A stretch of 61,116 nucleotides of DNA, taken from an uncultured Nitrospirota bacterium. GTDB taxonomy: Bacteria; Nitrospirota; Nitrospiria; Nitrospirales; UBA8639. Numbering within the stretch: position 1 is the stretch's first letter; each line of letters begins with the position of its first letter. Below are positions 35,239 to 42,415 of this stretch, piece after piece. Where the stretch lies: the NCBI GenBank assembly GCA_937139405.1, contig CAKZPV010000024.1, forward strand, positions 1 through 61,116, written 5' to 3'. The notes beneath the pieces are model-generated. The model did no database searches. It saw nothing but the letters and a program-made list of their open reading frames with translations, and was not told where the DNA came from. Both the position numbers and the translations under genes were made by a program.

Positions 35239-36106
35239 GGTGCTGCCCTCCTTAAATAATGAAATTGAATATTGTAGACCGTCCGAGGATTATCTCCGCG
35301 GGGGTAAAGCATTGATATCAGCAAAACCTATTCCAATTTTCATGACCTCAAAACCACAAAATTTATCTCTTTGATTTTAAGATGATTTTTATAATTCTCG
35401 GTTATAAGAAAATAATCACATATATACTATATCTTAAGTATTATAATTTAACTCATTGTATGAAAACGCATGCAGTGAAGCGCAGGGAATAACATGCACT
35501 ACATGCGAAACAACGATTTCAAGCTGAAAGTTGGTGAGAGGGATTTTTGGAAAAATTTAAATAATACTACTGAAGTTTTCAGTTTTGAAGGACAGGCCCT
35601 TAGATATTCATAGGTATTATTCCATCCCCTATCAATTACTATAAAATGGAACCTATATCTTTGGAATCTGGAAGTTTATTGAATGTGCAGATTTTGGTAT
35701 AGGAATAGTCACAGAGAACAACCCCATCACACGCCACACAGTTGCCCACGGAATTCAACCAATTGTCCCTCTCCATTTTTTAAAGCTAATAAAACAAAAA
35801 AATCCTTTATTCGCGCTGGCATTATGAAGGTATGGAATTTAAACGGACTATAAATTGGTGGGGTGAGGACTATCAAAAAGGCTGAGGAAATATATGGAAA
35901 TGAAAAGATATTTTTAATTGACAGTGTAACTGTCATTCTTCAGGAAATGCTTCAAGAATCGCCACGTGATGGTGCGTCGGATGTGTCATCACACTGGCTC
36001 AGTCATACCCCGGCATCATCTCTCATTAATCATCACACCACTGGAAAAATTCAAATAACCAATCTGACATTCTGACTAATGTGACCCAACTGGAGTTCGA
36101 TCCCTC
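35239..36106. other. Long AT-rich intergenic region
   Basis: This 868-base stretch lies between the small secreted protein and the GH94-like gene. Two short frames (35727-35936 minus, 35863-36075 plus) overlap each other and show no protein signature. Base composition is clearly more AT-rich than in the next gene. Nothing else is recognised. Confidence 0.45.
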
Positions 36107-39100
36107 ATGACAACATTTCAATCACGCGACGAGATTGAGACGATTGAGTTAGCCAACTCAAGCGGCCTTGTTTTTACGTTTTTTCAGAATGGCGGTGTAT
36201 CCCGGGTGATGTGTCATGATGTGATGATTAATCAGATACTTGGCAACCCGCTTGAAGGGTCATTGAACAATGTGTATTTACGCCTCCGCACGGCTGCTTC
36301 CATTACGTTTGTCCCGCTGATCGGACCCTCATCACCCAGTACCTTCGCGCACGCACAACATCAAGCCAGATGGCAAGGGCACTGGCAAGATCTGTCTTAT
36401 ACGTGTTCACTGACGCTGCATCCAGAGGCAACGTTGTGGTTTTGGACCATCGATATTCACAACACCGCCTCGACGGATCATCTCTGCGATGTGATCTATA
36501 CCCAAGATATTGGCCTAGCCCACGAAGGGGCAGTCCGAAACAATGAAGCCTATTGCAGTCACTACATTGATCATGATGTGCTGCCCAACGACTCATACGG
36601 ACCCGTCGTGTGTTCACGCCAGAATCAAGCATACGGCGATCAACATCCCTGGTTAATGCAGGGGAGTACCACTCACACCAGGGGCTTCGTGACCGATGGT
36701 TTGCCATTTTATGGCTTGGCGTATAAACACACCAATATCCCAGTTGGACTCACCCAAGATTGCCTCGCGAATGTCAAACAGCAATACGAAATGGCATTCT
36801 GCGGTCTGCAATCCGACATCCTACAGATTGCTCCCGGCGAGTCCCAATCGGTCACGTTTTACGCTGAATATGTGCCGCACCATCCAGATCCCACACAAGC
36901 CGCTGATGCCGACCGTATCCATCCCGCAGTCAACCGTATCGAAAGATTACAAGCTCAACCACCCAATCGTGTGTTCACGACGCAACCAGTCGCCAACACG
37001 ATCTTCCACAAACTTCAGATGCTGACCGGACACGATGTAACCGACGACGATGTTCAAGACCTATACCCAGCTCGGCGACGCCATGACGAAGTCCACGACG
37101 GAAGATTGTTGTCGTTTTTCTATGCGGATGCCACTCACGTCGTGTTCAAAGCCAAAGAGCAGCTCGTCGAACGCCCCCACGGCCATATTTTGCGCAGCGG
37201 TAGCGCTCGGATTCCGCATGACGATGGGCTAAGTTCAACCACGCATATGACCGGCGTTTTTCACTCCCATCTCAGTATTGGCAACACATCGTTCAACAAA
37301 CTGTTATCCATGACGAGAACCTCCTTCAACATCTTCAAAACGAGCGGCCTGCGCATTTTAATCAAGCAAGGCACAACGTATCATCTTCTCGGGATGCCGT
37401 CGTGTTATGAAATCGGCTTGCACAGCTGCCGATGGCGGTACAAGACCGATCAGGGATGGATTGTGGTCAATGCCTGGGTCAGCCCCGAAGATGCCGCCGC
37501 GTTTCTGAGTATTGTGTCCGATCATACCAACACCTTTGTCATACTCAACAATCTGGTGCTGGGTAACCATGAACTGGATCATCAAGGCCATATTGATATT
37601 GATATCCAGACAGCAACCGCCACCTTGAGACCGCATGACAGCACGGATATGACTCAACGATATCCGGATACCATGTTCTCTATCACGACGTCGGAACCAG
37701 ACAAGGTCGAGTTCATTGGGACAGATGAGGGATTATTTACCGATCGACAGTCCCGTGGACTCCCCTATCTCACATTTCAGACCAAACCCGTGCAGACGTT
37801 TTCTTTAGCGATCACGGGTTCAATCATCAACGCGGATCACGCCAAGATCTTATGCGAAAAATATCAAGCTCAGCCGGTTAATCTGAAGCAAGACCAACAG
37901 GCCAGTTGGTCATTTTGGCAATCACTAGGAAGACAATTTCACATATCACTCACCAAGACGAATCCGCTTTGCGACAAACTCAACGACATATTTTACTGGT
38001 ACGTGCACAATGCCATGGTGCACTTCACGACGCCCCATGGTCTCGAACAATATTCCGGTGCAGCATGGGGTGTACGCGATGTCTGCCAAGGCCCGCTCGA
38101 ACTCCTTTTGGCCACCCAACACTACAATGAAGTGAAAACCATCTTGTTAACGGTCTTTGCCCAACAATATGAGGAGACGGCCGATTGGCCACAGTGGTTT
38201 ATGTTTGATCGGTTCGCCAACATCCAGCATCCGGAGAGCCATGGCGACGTCATCATTTGGCCCTTAAAGGCGCTGGCGATGTACCTCGAAGCCAGTAACG
38301 ATTTTAGTATCTTAGATATTGAGCTACCCTACACCGAGATGAAAAATTTTGGCTTCACCTCCACCAAATCCACTGTACTGCAGCATGTTCAGCGCGCTAT
38401 TGACGCCATAGAATCCCGCTTTATCCCGGGTACGGCGTTGTCAGGCTACGGCAATGGGGATTGGAACGATACCCTTCAACCGGCTCAATCCGACATGCGG
38501 GAGGATATGGTAAGCACCTGGACGGTCGCGTTAACCTACCAAGTGTTCCAACAATTGGCCACCGCCTTTAAGCAGGCTGGGCTCAATGCCGATGAACAAC
38601 GACTGCTGCAGTTAGCTCAACGCATCAAAGCAGATTTCAACCAGCATCTCATCCCGGATAAGGTGGTGAGCGGATTTGGCTATCGGCACACGGATGGGCG
38701 GGTGGAACCTATCATTCACCCAAGCGATACGCGAACGAAGATTCACTATCGGCTGCTGCCGATGACCCGCAGCATGATTGGCGAGTTATTCACCCCTAAA
38801 CAAGTGGAGGATCACCTGCGGCTCATCGAGTCCCATTTAAGTTTTCCGGACGGTGTCCGCCTCATGAACAAACCCGTGTCGTATCAAGGCGGCGTGCGAG
38901 TGTTATTCCGCCGGGCCGAAGAGTCGGCCCATTTCGGGCGTGAGATCGGCTTGCAATATGTGCACGCCCACATCCGCTATATCGAAGCGATGTGCAAAAT
39001 CGGCCAAGCCCAGAAAGCCTACGACGCGATCTTGCAGATTATACCGATCACTATTCAGGATCAGGTACGCAATGCGGTCACACGGCAGAGCAATGCCTAC

Positions 39101-39538
39101 TTCAGTAGCTCAGATGCGGATGTGCGGGATCGTCATGAAGCCGAACGGCTATTCGATGCGCTGCGGGTGGGTCACGTTCGGGTGAAAGGAGGTTGGCGAA
39201 TATACTCCAGCGGGCCCGGCATCTTGATCAATCAAATCGTCAGCCATTTTTTGGGCTTACGACTGTCTTATGACGATTTCGTCATCGATCCCATCTTGCC
39301 AAAACAACTTGATGGACTACAATTTGCCTTTGCCATCGATGAAAAACCAATCACTGTAATCTTCTCAATTGCCAGTGATGCACCAGCGAAGGTGCAATCC
39401 GTAACCATCAATGGAATCGAAACAGAATTTAGACGCGATCACAATCCCTACCGCACAGGTGGGGTTCGGATACCACGCGCAGACTTTTACTCCCCACTGA
39501 GTGACGACACCAATCGCATTCTCATCAGCTCAGCCTAA
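36107..39538 (+). CDS. GH94-like glycoside phosphorylase, possibly 1,2-beta-oligoglucan phosphorylase
   Basis: This is a 1143-residue carbohydrate-active enzyme. The C-terminal half has (alpha/alpha)6-barrel signatures of GH94 phosphorylases: EQYSGAAWGVRDVCQGP near residue 650, SGYGNGDWNDTLQP near 780 (its aspartate is the likely general acid), NAYFSSSDA and GGWRIYSSGPGI. The N-terminal half is beta-sandwich-like. GH94 enzymes cleave beta-glucosidic bonds with phosphate. The length of about 1100 fits 1,2-beta-oligoglucan phosphorylases, whereas cellobiose phosphorylases have about 800 residues. No sugar transporter or partner gene is adjacent. Codons end in C or G more often than in the neighbours, so transfer is possible. 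There is no signal peptide, so it is probably cytoplasmic. Confidence 0.72.
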   Translation: MTTFQSRDEIETIELANSSGLVFTFFQNGGVSRVMCHDVMINQILGNPLEGSLNNVYLRLRTAASITFVPLIGPSSPSTFAHAQHQARWQGHWQDLSYTCSLTLHPEATLWFWTIDIHNTASTDHLCDVIYTQDIGLAHEGAVRNNEAYCSHYIDHDVLPNDSYGPVVCSRQNQAYGDQHPWLMQGSTTHTRGFVTDGLPFYGLAYKHTNIPVGLTQDCLANVKQQYEMAFCGLQSDILQIAPGESQSVTFYAEYVPHHPDPTQAADADRIHPAVNRIERLQAQPPNRVFTTQPVANTIFHKLQMLTGHDVTDDDVQDLYPARRRHDEVHDGRLLSFFYADATHVVFKAKEQLVERPHGHILRSGSARIPHDDGLSSTTHMTGVFHSHLSIGNTSFNKLLSMTRTSFNIFKTSGLRILIKQGTTYHLLGMPSCYEIGLHSCRWRYKTDQGWIVVNAWVSPEDAAAFLSIVSDHTNTFVILNNLVLGNHELDHQGHIDIDIQTATATLRPHDSTDMTQRYPDTMFSITTSEPDKVEFIGTDEGLFTDRQSRGLPYLTFQTKPVQTFSLAITGSIINADHAKILCEKYQAQPVNLKQDQQASWSFWQSLGRQFHISLTKTNPLCDKLNDIFYWYVHNAMVHFTTPHGLEQYSGAAWGVRDVCQGPLELLLATQHYNEVKTILLTVFAQQYEETADWPQWFMFDRFANIQHPESHGDVIIWPLKALAMYLEASNDFSILDIELPYTEMKNFGFTSTKSTVLQHVQRAIDAIESRFIPGTALSGYGNGDWNDTLQPAQSDMREDMVSTWTVALTYQVFQQLATAFKQAGLNADEQRLLQLAQRIKADFNQHLIPDKVVSGFGYRHTDGRVEPIIHPSDTRTKIHYRLLPMTRSMIGELFTPKQVEDHLRLIESHLSFPDGVRLMNKPVSYQGGVRVLFRRAEESAHFGREIGLQYVHAHIRYIEAMCKIGQAQKAYDAILQIIPITIQDQVRNAVTRQSNAYFSSSDADVRDRHEAERLFDALRVGHVRVKGGWRIYSSGPGILINQIVSHFLGLRLSYDDFVIDPILPKQLDGLQFAFAIDEKPITVIFSIASDAPAKVQSVTINGIETEFRRDHNPYRTGGVRIPRADFYSPLSDDTNRILISSA

Positions 39539-39698
39539 AGCGATTTCCCGCGAAGACTGGCGGTGGCGAAGGCCTCTTCCGCCGCCCCCAAGTCAGACTC
39601 ATCTATTTTGCCAGGCGTATACCGAGTGCGCTAAGAAGTTGCTGGAATTTAAGGGTAATTGGCGGTAGCATGCGGGACGAGAGTGTCTTCGGTGTAGG

Positions 39699-41000
39699 TC
39701 AATTGTTTTCGCCTCTTTTGTTCATTTTACTTTGCCAGGCCAGTACCAATGCCTTATTGCCTTTGGCGACCTGAGAGATAATGGTCCCAAGAGCTTTGGT
39801 TTCGGCACGGTGAGTTCCGACATAACCGGAACGTATCAGGCTTATTATGTCGGCTTCGCGCAAATAGGTTCCGTCCAATGTGCTATAGCTCAGGCGCACG
39901 CCGCCTTTCGACCCCTTGGCTTCAGGCGATGTGAGGATTTCTTTGAGGTGTTCGAGCGAAACCAGAAAAGACTGATGAGAGCTATTGACAATCCTCCGCT
40001 TCACAAACTTGAAGAAGAAAGGGCTTCGGCTCAGTCGATAATCCGTCAACTTTTCGCAACAAGTCGGGAGCTGCATTCGTTTAATCTCATCACGCAACTG
40101 TTTGTTCGGTCTAAATTGCCAGTCGAGGCCTCCGCCCTCCTGCTTCGATTTCTCCAGCATTTTGTACTGGACCATAACAATATTTCCACGAGTCTCGTTG
40201 ATATAGATCAGATCAACGCCAAGCATCTTTTCCAGGGGAAGCTTGTTGGCGGTGTAAAGCACCAGGCGTTCATCATGTTTTTCAAAAACAGCCCTTCCTG
40301 TGACATCGGGGGCTATAGCATCGAATCCCGCTAATTGGGAGGCGTCAGCATGAACGACATTGTCTTCATACAGGTAAGATCCGATCAGTCCAAGGCCCGA
40401 AGAAGTATTGCGTTTTAAGGCGACTTGAACTGGTACTGCGTTGGCCCGGATATCGAACGCTGCTATGGCTGTCTGGATTGCATCTTCCTGTGCCCAATTG
40501 CTATGAGGGGTGCGTCGCAATTGGGGCAGCAAGGACAGCGCGGTATCCAGTGCAGAATGGTTTTCCGAGTTGCCCCCCAGCACCTTAATAAGGTGAGCGC
40601 TGAGTAAGGGCGAAAGCCTTGAGAAATTTCCTTTTGCCGGCAATCGGTCCTTGAGTAAACGCTTCATCCGCGCCAAGATGACTTTTCCCTCTATCATGTG
40701 AAACGAAGACGGTTTCACCGCGCGTAGCTTCTTGATGGTCAAGCGCGAGTCAAATGTGCTGGCAGTGGTTTTACGGGATGCAGTGCCCAAGTAACACTTG
40801 GTCCCACCATGCTCCTGAATTTCCAATAAACAGACCGTCGGCACATTAAAGTCTTCGAAAACTGAGTGTGGCTTTGCAATCGTGAAGTGTTCGAACCCTT
40901 GCTGAGAATTTAGTAGGGATTCGGAAAATGCCTCGTCGAAGCGAATCAAGATCATGGGTTTCTTCTGAACCCACTTGGCGAGGTTAGAGGCTGCGCTCAC
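39699..41000 (-). CDS. Predicted PD-(D/E)XK (QxK-type) nuclease, restriction-associated
   Basis: This is a 433-residue protein of no named family. The segment LGVDLIYINETRGNIVMVQYK (split at 262-280) has an aspartate, D263, followed after a hydrophobic strand by Q278-x-K280. This is the D...QxK variant of the PD-(D/E)XK nuclease core, as in Mrr-like restriction enzymes. Glutamates at 240 and 244 could complete the site. Its GTG start overlaps the stop of an HsdS-like fragment by 4 bases (GTGA), so it is a translationally coupled partner of a type I restriction operon. It may be an accessory anti-phage nuclease; no experiment supports this. Confidence 0.55.
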   Translation of the reverse strand: MSAASNLAKWVQKKPMILIRFDEAFSESLLNSQQGFEHFTIAKPHSVFEDFNVPTVCLLEIQEHGGTKCYLGTASRKTTASTFDSRLTIKKLRAVKPSSFHMIEGKVILARMKRLLKDRLPAKGNFSRLSPLLSAHLIKVLGGNSENHSALDTALSLLPQLRRTPHSNWAQEDAIQTAIAAFDIRANAVPVQVALKRNTSSGLGLIGSYLYEDNVVHADASQLAGFDAIAPDVTGRAVFEKHDERLVLYTANKLPLEKMLGVDLIYINETRGNIVMVQYKMLEKSKQEGGGLDWQFRPNKQLRDEIKRMQLPTCCEKLTDYRLSRSPFFFKFVKRRIVNSSHQSFLVSLEHLKEILTSPEAKGSKGGVRLSYSTLDGTYLREADIISLIRSGYVGTHRAETKALGTIISQVAKGNKALVLAWQSKMNKRGENN

Positions 41001-41209
41001 ATCGCCACCTCCCCACTCATCAGGCGAGGCAGGAGTATATCGCGAGCCGCGGCAAGTTTTCGATTCTTTAGACTAAGAGCTTTGAATTGCTGGATGATTG
41101 GCTTGATAACGCTATTGAAGATCATTAAAAGACTATCGGATGGTAATAGCACGATGTATTGCTGCATTTGCTTCCAACCTGCTCGAAAAGGGGCCAGACC
41201 TTTTGTTGC
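40997..41209 (-). pseudogene. hsdS: C-terminal fragment of a type I restriction specificity subunit (HsdS)
   Basis: The minus-strand frame ending at 40997 encodes about 60 residues. The last 50 include IVLLPSDSLLMIFNSVIKPI, then NRKLAAARDILLPRLMSGEV, the typical HsdS C-terminus (a coiled-coil region then LLPRLMSGE). The DNA-recognition domains and the rest of the gene are absent. The frame closes at a TAG at 41212-41210, inside an inverted repeat. The fragment cannot provide specificity; hsdM and hsdR are not in the window. Its stop overlaps the start of the predicted nuclease gene. Confidence 0.8.
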
Positions 41210-41382
41210 CTAATTAATGTCTCCACCTGTCAGGATAGACCGCACCCGAATACGCTAGGCGCAGGAAGTCCTGTCATGCGAACAACTGGGCTGGCGCCGA
41301 CGTAACTCTCAACCAAAGACTTTCCCCCTTTACTTTTTCAGAATGAAGCGCCTACTACAACAAACAACAAAAGATCTGACCC
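41190..41382. repeat. Short element bounded by imperfect 18-bp inverted repeats
   Basis: GGGCCAGACCTTTTGTTG (41191-41208) recurs inverted as GGGTCAGATCTTTTGTTG (minus strand, 41382-41365), identical at 16 of 18 positions. The 156-base core has no coding potential. One end lies at the break in hsdS and the other about 5 bases from the brnA stop codon. It looks like a miniature or decayed mobile element, or a deletion scar. Confidence 0.55.
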
Positions 41383-41387
41383 GTTCT

Positions 41388-41639
41388 CTACTGCGAGGCC
41401 AGAGATTCCTCAACAGCCTTACGGATATATTTCTGGTAGGAAATGCCTTCCTGCTCTGCCTTCTGCCGAACTGCAGAAAGCAGTTGCTCTGAAAACCGCA
41501 GATTGACCTGCTTGTCTTTGGGGAGCATCTCAAAGTTGACCGACGTAAAGTTCTTCAGATTGATGTAATCCGTCAAATCTTGGTCTAGGAATTTTTCCGC
41601 TTCTTTATCACTTTTCAATTTTGGCATTTTCTTCTTCAT
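41388..41639 (-). CDS. brnA: BrnA-type antitoxin (ribbon-helix-helix)
   Basis: This is an antitoxin of 83 residues. The N-terminal KMPKLKSDKEAEKFLDQDLTDYINL segment fits BrnA/CopG-type proteins. The C-terminal VNLRFSEQLLSAVRQKAEQEGISYQKYIRKAVEESL is a ribbon-helix-helix DNA-binding domain. It neutralises BrnT and represses the operon. A longer frame starts at 41660, but the ATG at 41639 has AGAGG at good spacing. It overlaps brnT by about 30 bases, the usual toxin-first BrnT-BrnA order. Confidence 0.85.
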   Translation of the reverse strand: MKKKMPKLKSDKEAEKFLDQDLTDYINLKNFTSVNFEMLPKDKQVNLRFSEQLLSAVRQKAEQEGISYQKYIRKAVEESLASQ

Positions 41640-41925
41640 ATCTTTTTGCCTCTTTCTCATGCATATAACGAGCGCTGATGGGTCGAATTAATCTCTCTCC
41701 ATTCACATCCCGCAGGGTAAACACAACAAACATCGGTTTTTGCCTTTGAGAGCGTCCAATCGCCAGATAGCGCTCCTCATCATCGGAATGTTTGGGATCG
41801 GGGGTAACCAATACCTCCTTTTGTTGAAAGAAATACTCAATTTCTTTCTGAGACAGCCCATGCTTTTGGCACTTTTCCCGGTTTCCCTTATTCCAATCAA
41901 AGGCGTTAACCTGCATTTTTATCAT
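41608..41925 (-). CDS. brnT: BrnT-type toxin (RelE-fold ribonuclease)
   Basis: This is a toxin of about 105 residues. The N-terminal FDWNKGNREKCQKHGLSQKEIEYFF, EERYLAIGRS, FVVFTLRDVNGERLIRPISARYMHEKEAKRYE sequence matches the BrnT family closely, including the conserved RxISAR segment of the active site. BrnT cleaves RNA and stops growth until BrnA binds. The frame opens at 41970, but the promoter lies inside that extension; translation therefore begins at the ATG at 41925 or 41916, close to the predicted transcript start. Confidence 0.9.
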   Translation of the reverse strand: MIKMQVNAFDWNKGNREKCQKHGLSQKEIEYFFQQKEVLVTPDPKHSDDEERYLAIGRSQRQKPMFVVFTLRDVNGERLIRPISARYMHEKEAKRYEEENAKIEK

Positions 41926-41931
41926 ATCATG

Positions 41932-41961
41932 AAGATATGCGTTTGTATATACAATTGTCAA
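41932..41961 (-). promoter_or_regulatory. brnTA promoter with palindromic operator
   Basis: On the minus strand a perfect -35 TTGACA (41961-41956) precedes TATCTT (41937-41932) as the -10, with 18 bases between. A perfect 12-bp palindrome TTGTATATACAA occupies 41954-41943, within the spacer. This is where a ribbon-helix-helix antitoxin such as BrnA could block RNA polymerase. The transcript would begin at or next to the brnT ATG, giving little or no leader. Confidence 0.6.
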
Positions 41962-42024
41962 TGCATACATTCACGATTTGGCAGGACATGAAATCTCTCA
42001 TGGAAAGCTTAGTGTGTTCTAAGC

Positions 42025-42064: not shown

Positions 42065-42415
42065 TGGTGGAGGTGAGGGGAATCGAACCCCTGTCCGAGA
42101 ACATTCAGCACAACAGCCCTACGTGTGTAGCCGATGATTTAAGATTCGCAGTTGCCCACGCCCACCGACCGGCTTAGAGCGCCCGCTAGCCCAGAAAGTT
42201 CTCATCCGCCGCCTCTGAGCATCAGCATTGGACCAGCCTGCAAAGTGTCGCCTCTTCCCCTCCCGCAGACAAAGAGAGGAGAGACGTCGCAGTCAATTAA
42301 GCTGCGAGAGCCAAAGGTTCGTTGGCAATTAATGTTTTCCCGAAGGTTTTACGAGACTCCGAGAGCTCGACACGCTCTGTTGACCTCTTGATTCCCGTCG
42401 AAGCCAGTCACCCCC
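42065..42415 (-). ncRNA. ssrA: Transfer-messenger RNA (tmRNA)
   Basis: A 351-nt tmRNA rescues ribosomes stalled on broken messages. The 5' end GGGGGTGACTGGCTTCGACGG pairs (GGGGGTG/CACCTCC) with the 3' end, which has a T arm (GGTTCGATTCC), discriminator A and CCA at 42067-42065. The tag reading frame at 42326-42297 encodes ANEPLALAA plus the resume alanine codon context, then TAA; the ALAA end is the protease-recognition tail. Stem-loops and pseudoknot-like pairs lie between. The 3' end faces the accessory region to the left, a common integration site for mobile elements. Confidence 0.96.

Follow-up and report, generated by a model that had tools for sequence, protein, structure and literature searches.

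The window, the whole stretch of 61,116 nucleotides from an uncultured Nitrospirota bacterium that was analysed here, carries on its minus strand a gene for a protein of 433 aa with a GTG start (39699-41000, -), referred to below as X. From the reading frame and its homologues, X is predicted to join a PUA-like sensor to a PD-(D/E)XK nuclease. The frame had been called before with the same length, and its strand could now be assigned. Immediately upstream lies a remnant of about 50 codons from the C-terminus of an hsdS gene (40997-41152, -). The hsdS frame stops at 40997, ending in ...LLPRLMSGEVAM (also given as ...RDILLPRLMSGEVAM), and the four bases GTGA (41000-40997) are common to its end and the start of X. 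By tblastn, 49 aa of this tail (41152-41006) matched the C-terminus of the HsdS of locus L003 (43%, E 9e-7) and that of L006 (35%, E 7e-4), with E values that refer to a search space of the size of the window. Both matched HsdS proteins themselves precede X in their loci. Only a C-terminal scrap is left: similarity starts at 41152, and the frame is closed by a stop at about 41212. The HsdS identity of the upstream C-terminus and the GTGA overlap, both part of the original prediction, were thus found in the sequence. Six relatives from several phyla carry the same 4-base overlap with an upstream hsdS or pglX, and therefore the arrangement is more than chance. A GGGGAGG motif within the hsdS tail (41008-41014, -), 7 nt 5' of the GTG, serves as ribosome binding site of X. 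A promoter-like site assignable to X above chance was not found.

The window genome (4.46 Mb, 98% complete) was searched for the remaining parts of a type I system. Neither a Methylase_S (PF01420) nor an N6_Mtase (PF02384) gene was detected, meaning no HsdM and no other HsdS. As a control, the same models were run on 14 genomes, where Methylase_S was found in 9 and N6_Mtase in 13. Judged from these hsdM and hsdS models, the genome lacks a complete type I restriction-modification system, as the suggestion of a broken HsdS and a lost system had implied. X is an intact orphan that persists after its restriction system. The 240 bp 5' of the hsdS tail have no second copy in the genome, and therefore no insertion sequence was found to account for the deletion. 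In the window and in L002, L003, L006 and L007, a GGAGG lies about 7 nt before the start of X, inside the upstream gene. Carriage of the ribosome binding site of X can thus be a simple reason why hsdS and pglX tails persist before it. Comparison of X between the window and L002 gave a dN/dS of 0.13-0.19; most of the time behind this value may predate the loss of hsdS.

The C-terminal part of X (residues 164-433; 39702-40511, -) is predicted to form a PD-(D/E)XK domain. Modelled alone with AlphaFold, it reached a pTM of 0.74. Structural comparison with VIA-align gave RecU (Z 9.0), Hjc (8.0) and I-Ssp6803I (7.9), followed by PvuII, HinP1I, BsoBI, SwaI and EcoRV, so that nearly all matches were nucleases of the PD-(D/E)XK fold. 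The first three were also retrieved with residues 166-398 of the full-length model (Z about 6), and Foldseek alone gave an E of 0.025 for the domain. The predicted active site (40161-40367, -) consists of E212 (40365-40367), D263 (40212-40214), Q278 (40167-40169) and K280 (40161-40163). In the model, the helix preceding the sheet carries E212, one core strand carries D263, and the next strand carries Q278 and K280. The domain model thus shows the core alpha-beta fold and the D...(D/E/Q)xK site of the superfamily, and X would probably cleave DNA. The PD-(D/E)XK reading and the positions of D263, Q278 and K280, which the original prediction had taken from motif shape, agree with these data. All four residues are invariant in an alignment of 26 relatives (A1). 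Because IVMVQYKM had served as a search pattern, the invariance seen for VMVQYKM in A1 is in part due to how the sequences were selected, and it was re-tested with plasmid homologues from tblastn. The four residues were also invariant in homologues found without motif patterns, down to 22% identity. Of the 45 invariant residues in A1, 44 fall within the nuclease domain and a single one within the sensor, as expected if the cutter is fixed and the sensor changes. The likeness to Mrr-like enzymes that had been proposed was not supported beyond the QxK motif: Pfam gave no Mrr match at E values up to 1, and membership of X in that family was rejected. X was likewise rejected as an HsdR, in line with the earlier view; with 433 aa and no HSDR_N or helicase match in Pfam, it lacks both the HSDR_N nuclease and the DEAD-type motor.

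The N-terminal domain (residues 1-149; 40554-41000, -) had gone unnoticed in the original prediction. In the full-length AlphaFold model (mean pLDDT 77.5) it was predicted with confidence. VIA-align with residues 1-148 gave EVE (Z 8.6), THYN1 with 5mC DNA (8.4), ASCH and YTHDC1 (7.8) and the N-terminal domain of McrB (6.8). The top block of EVE, THYN1, ASCH and YTH (Z 8.6-7.6) represents moderate scores, at which the model shows a PUA-type beta-barrel of the EVE/ASCH/YTH kind, domains known to read modified bases. In Foldseek, the domain matched an ASCH domain with a probability of 0.99. Several phage proteins were matched at 0.96-0.99, including one annotated as activating-signal-cointegrator (ASCH-type). 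Foldseek alone gave no match below E 0.001 for either domain of the X model, and the fold calls depend mainly on VIA-align. By sequence, hhalign against 25 EVE proteins returned a probability of 0.3%, and there was no PF01878 match in Pfam; therefore the domain was not filed as an EVE protein. ASCH was too rare among the relatives of X for a profile. Since a sequence relation to EVE is missing, reading of a modified base is a role deduced from the fold, which the domain may well have.

Scans with X alone gave no match in Pfam, NCBIfam, PADLOC, PHROGs or PDB sequences. X belongs to an apparently undescribed family, a predicted nuclease family unmatched by current defence databases. The portions of the literature searched, exclusive of supplements, held no description of a family with such an architecture behind hsdS. 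Among 84,980 species genomes, 28 relatives with 32-75% identity were found. Further relatives were present in 9 plasmid records and 2 viral contigs, and none in phage records. Of 98 related genomes, two carry X, namely that of the window and another of the same order, so the distribution is patchy; among 21 genomes of the genus it is restricted to the window genome. The window clade comprises 10 sequences, 62-74% identical to the X of the window (support 98/99).

The closest relatives stand directly behind hsdS (three loci) or behind pglX of BREX systems (four loci). X follows hsdS in L002 (hsdM-hsdS-X), L003 and L006. In L004, L005 and L010 it follows pglX with BREX genes on both sides; the order is brxC, pglX, X, a DUF3644 gene, pglZ, brxL in L004 and L010, and brxC, pglX, X, pglZ in L005. 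In L007 it lies behind a broken pglX tail and in L009 behind a C5-methyltransferase, and nothing recognisable precedes it in L008. Members linked to S and members linked to BREX intermingle on the tree, so X swaps partners. Beyond the window clade, Gabija genes flank X or lie near it in L013, L014, L015, L016, L021 and L025 and on the plasmids L101 (GajA only) and L102. Other distant members have a Septu-like ATPase pair, a SIR2 gene or an Avs-like gene as neighbours, or stand alone, some of them solitary on plasmids. A survey of homologue neighbourhoods had been proposed for the window gene, and the expected repeated position behind hsdS was found. The type I context was only part of the picture, with an equally close tie to BREX pglX and a wider one to Gabija, and X is therefore not specific to type I systems. 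One accessory gene moves among the three kinds of system and keeps the 4-base coupling in the first two.

Several neighbours were observed in addition. A Schlafen AlbA_2 protein is encoded between brxC and pglX (L004 4823-6538, L010 4718-6439), and the DUF3644 gene between X and pglZ corresponds to PADLOC PDC-S19 (L004 11293-12273, L010 11254-12264). In Thiobacillus and relatives (L017, L018, L019, L024: 8666-9961), a conserved 431-aa protein without Pfam or PADLOC match ends 3 nt before the X frame. A DSR2-type SIR2 defence gene directly follows hsdM-hsdS-X in L002 (11364-15092). In L014, L015, L021, L025 and L102, gajA/gajB directly adjoin X and share its orientation, which suggests a three-gene Gabija variant.

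A second orphan, also new with respect to the original prediction, was found in Alcanivorax (L007). Of its PglX only residues 951-1119 are left, with a frame change, before an intact X. After X come a DUF3644 gene with 82% identity and a PglZ scrap. No PglZ domain was detected in the L007 genome with a model that was positive in only 2 of 14 control genomes. L007 independently repeats the state of the window, with the tail of the partner broken and X intact.

Taking these data together, we assign a probability of roughly 0.55 to X being a modification-dependent restriction enzyme of a type-IV-like kind, an add-on that backs up defence by methylation and can persist without its partner. The two folds, the motif and its conservation, the linkage, the orphan state and the intactness of X were computed, and we infer from them its nuclease activity, modified-base reading, dimerisation and autonomy. 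X would act as a single-chain endonuclease. Its N-terminal PUA-superfamily domain would flip out and read a modified base of the invading DNA; the C-terminal domain, probably as a dimer, would cut the DNA with Mg2+ at D263, Q278 and K280, E212 assisting. Operons that use m6A methylation to protect the host (type I restriction-modification, BREX) would place X right behind the target-recognition gene, where 4-base coupling would ensure its translation. There it could step in when a phage carries modified DNA that recognition by methylation state misses, with a division of labour as between BREX and BrxU. As X adjoins m6A methyltransferases and in one locus a C5-methyltransferase, a hypermodified base (such as hydroxymethyl- or glucosyl-hydroxymethylcytosine) is a likelier target than simple m6A or m5C. 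In the window genome the type I system is gone; the last hsdS codons, which hold the ribosome binding site of X, remain, and the intact X might work alone. Autonomy is argued from members without an S or PglX partner and from the intact X genes left behind tails in the window and in L007. Against this reading stand the sensor without a sequence relation to EVE, Z scores of about 8 that are only moderate, and the fact that PUA-type domains can bind RNA too.

The proposed function was compared with known systems. Passages of Bell et al. 2020 (PMC7641849) predict EVE-PD-(D/E)XK fusions to be type IV enzymes, and PUA-sensor plus nuclease chains appear as typical modification-dependent enzymes in parts of PMC7897488. 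Models of X suggest the same design, a sensor and a nuclease domain in one chain, with an N-terminal PUA fold, a C-terminal nuclease and a place in defence islands. In contrast to EVE-PD-(D/E)XK fusions, the N-terminal domain of X is not detectable as EVE by sequence, and whereas VcaM4I has an HNH nuclease (as described in parts of PMC7897488), X has a predicted PD-(D/E)XK domain. The fixed place behind hsdS or pglX is a feature of X that the relevant parts of these two papers do not describe for EVE-PD-(D/E)XK or VcaM4I. BREX protects against unmodified phage DNA and the type IV enzyme BrxU against modified phage DNA, so that both are complementary (PMC8565348). Like BrxU, a member of the GmrSD family (PMC8565348), X is accessory in type I BREX operons and a proposed backup against modified phage DNA. 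Unlike BrxU, which has DUF262/DUF1524 domains and needs NTPs, X matched neither domain in Pfam, so it was rejected as a BrxU/GmrSD protein; it also joins type I restriction-modification and Gabija. By analogy, X might fit the role of BrxU with unrelated domains. PD-(D/E)XK effectors in BREX have been reported as a class, and like these standalone effectors X is a nuclease gene embedded in a BREX operon; the main text of the report, in its accessible part, names the class and leaves the X family unnamed (PMC12839542). The closest solved folds of the nuclease domain are the Holliday-junction resolvases RecU and Hjc, and I-Ssp6803I. X resembles these enzymes in fold only; no sequence relation to them was found, and X has no junction-resolving context.

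Coupling to hsdS or pglX could also reflect physical cooperation instead of backup. X would then be an effector recruited by HsdM2S or PglX that replaces or supplements HsdR at unmethylated sites, and in the window a stranded subunit. The constant position with 4-base coupling fits this. So does the L002 contig with hsdM-hsdS-X (C13), which holds no HSDR_N gene; matches to PF04313, the one model used for HsdR there, with other HsdR types outside its reach, lie on C8, C14, C35, C40 and C70. For L003 and L006, the contigs do not reach far enough to tell whether hsdR is absent. Many members, however, lack S or PglX and stand beside Gabija or alone, and in both the window and L007 the loss of the partner left X intact; we consider the recruitment of X unlikely. 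The more specific version, in which hsdM-hsdS-X is an HsdR-less restriction system with X recruited as cutter by the methyltransferase-specificity complex, and X an interchangeable effector of type I, PglX/BREX and Gabija systems, appears quite unlikely. A role as abortive-infection nuclease, in which X upon infection would sense RNA or host nucleic acid through its PUA-like domain and cut it, would suit the frequent RNA binding of PUA, ASCH and YTH domains and the Gabija, Septu-like, SIR2 and Avs-like genes next to the family. We regard it as very improbable, given that the nuclease domain is nearest to DNA enzymes (RecU, Hjc, restriction enzymes) and the closest relatives belong to DNA-modification operons. 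With the modification-dependent enzyme as the preferred reading, X would be a type-IV-like backup that survives the loss of its host system, and one that is open to test. More such orphans could be found by searching neighbourhoods for hsdS or pglX tails that are followed by an intact gene.

The chromosomal site was compared across the genus. The region from 34.9 kb to the tmRNA (42.0 kb) is variable, and in several species about 1.5 to 6.4 kb separate the SDR gene from the tmRNA. The sister species G005 keeps 35.9-39.6 kb at 89% identity and carries 1.9 kb of other sequence at the position of X. The lost partner, the restriction to one genus genome, the replaced segment in the sister species and the lack of a promoter-like site above chance might imply that X is a passenger in decay, left on a degraded island without present function. 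This seems very unlikely in view of the full-length frame, the complete set of invariant residues, the low dN/dS, the retained ribosome binding site and an upstream brnTA pair in the same direction. The segment in G005 (L060 4202-6080) encodes a 375-aa ORF with a SEC-C-like motif in place of X. The variable site (window 35270-42000) adjoins the tmRNA (42065-42415) on its 3' side. A possible integration there found no support: the window has no second copy of the tmRNA 3' end, and so no att pair is shown. Between the tmRNA and the hsdS tail, the window encodes a BrnT toxin and a BrnA-type (CopG) antitoxin (41388-41970, -), and a BrnA/BrnT pair was also observed near X on a Novosphingobium plasmid (L063).
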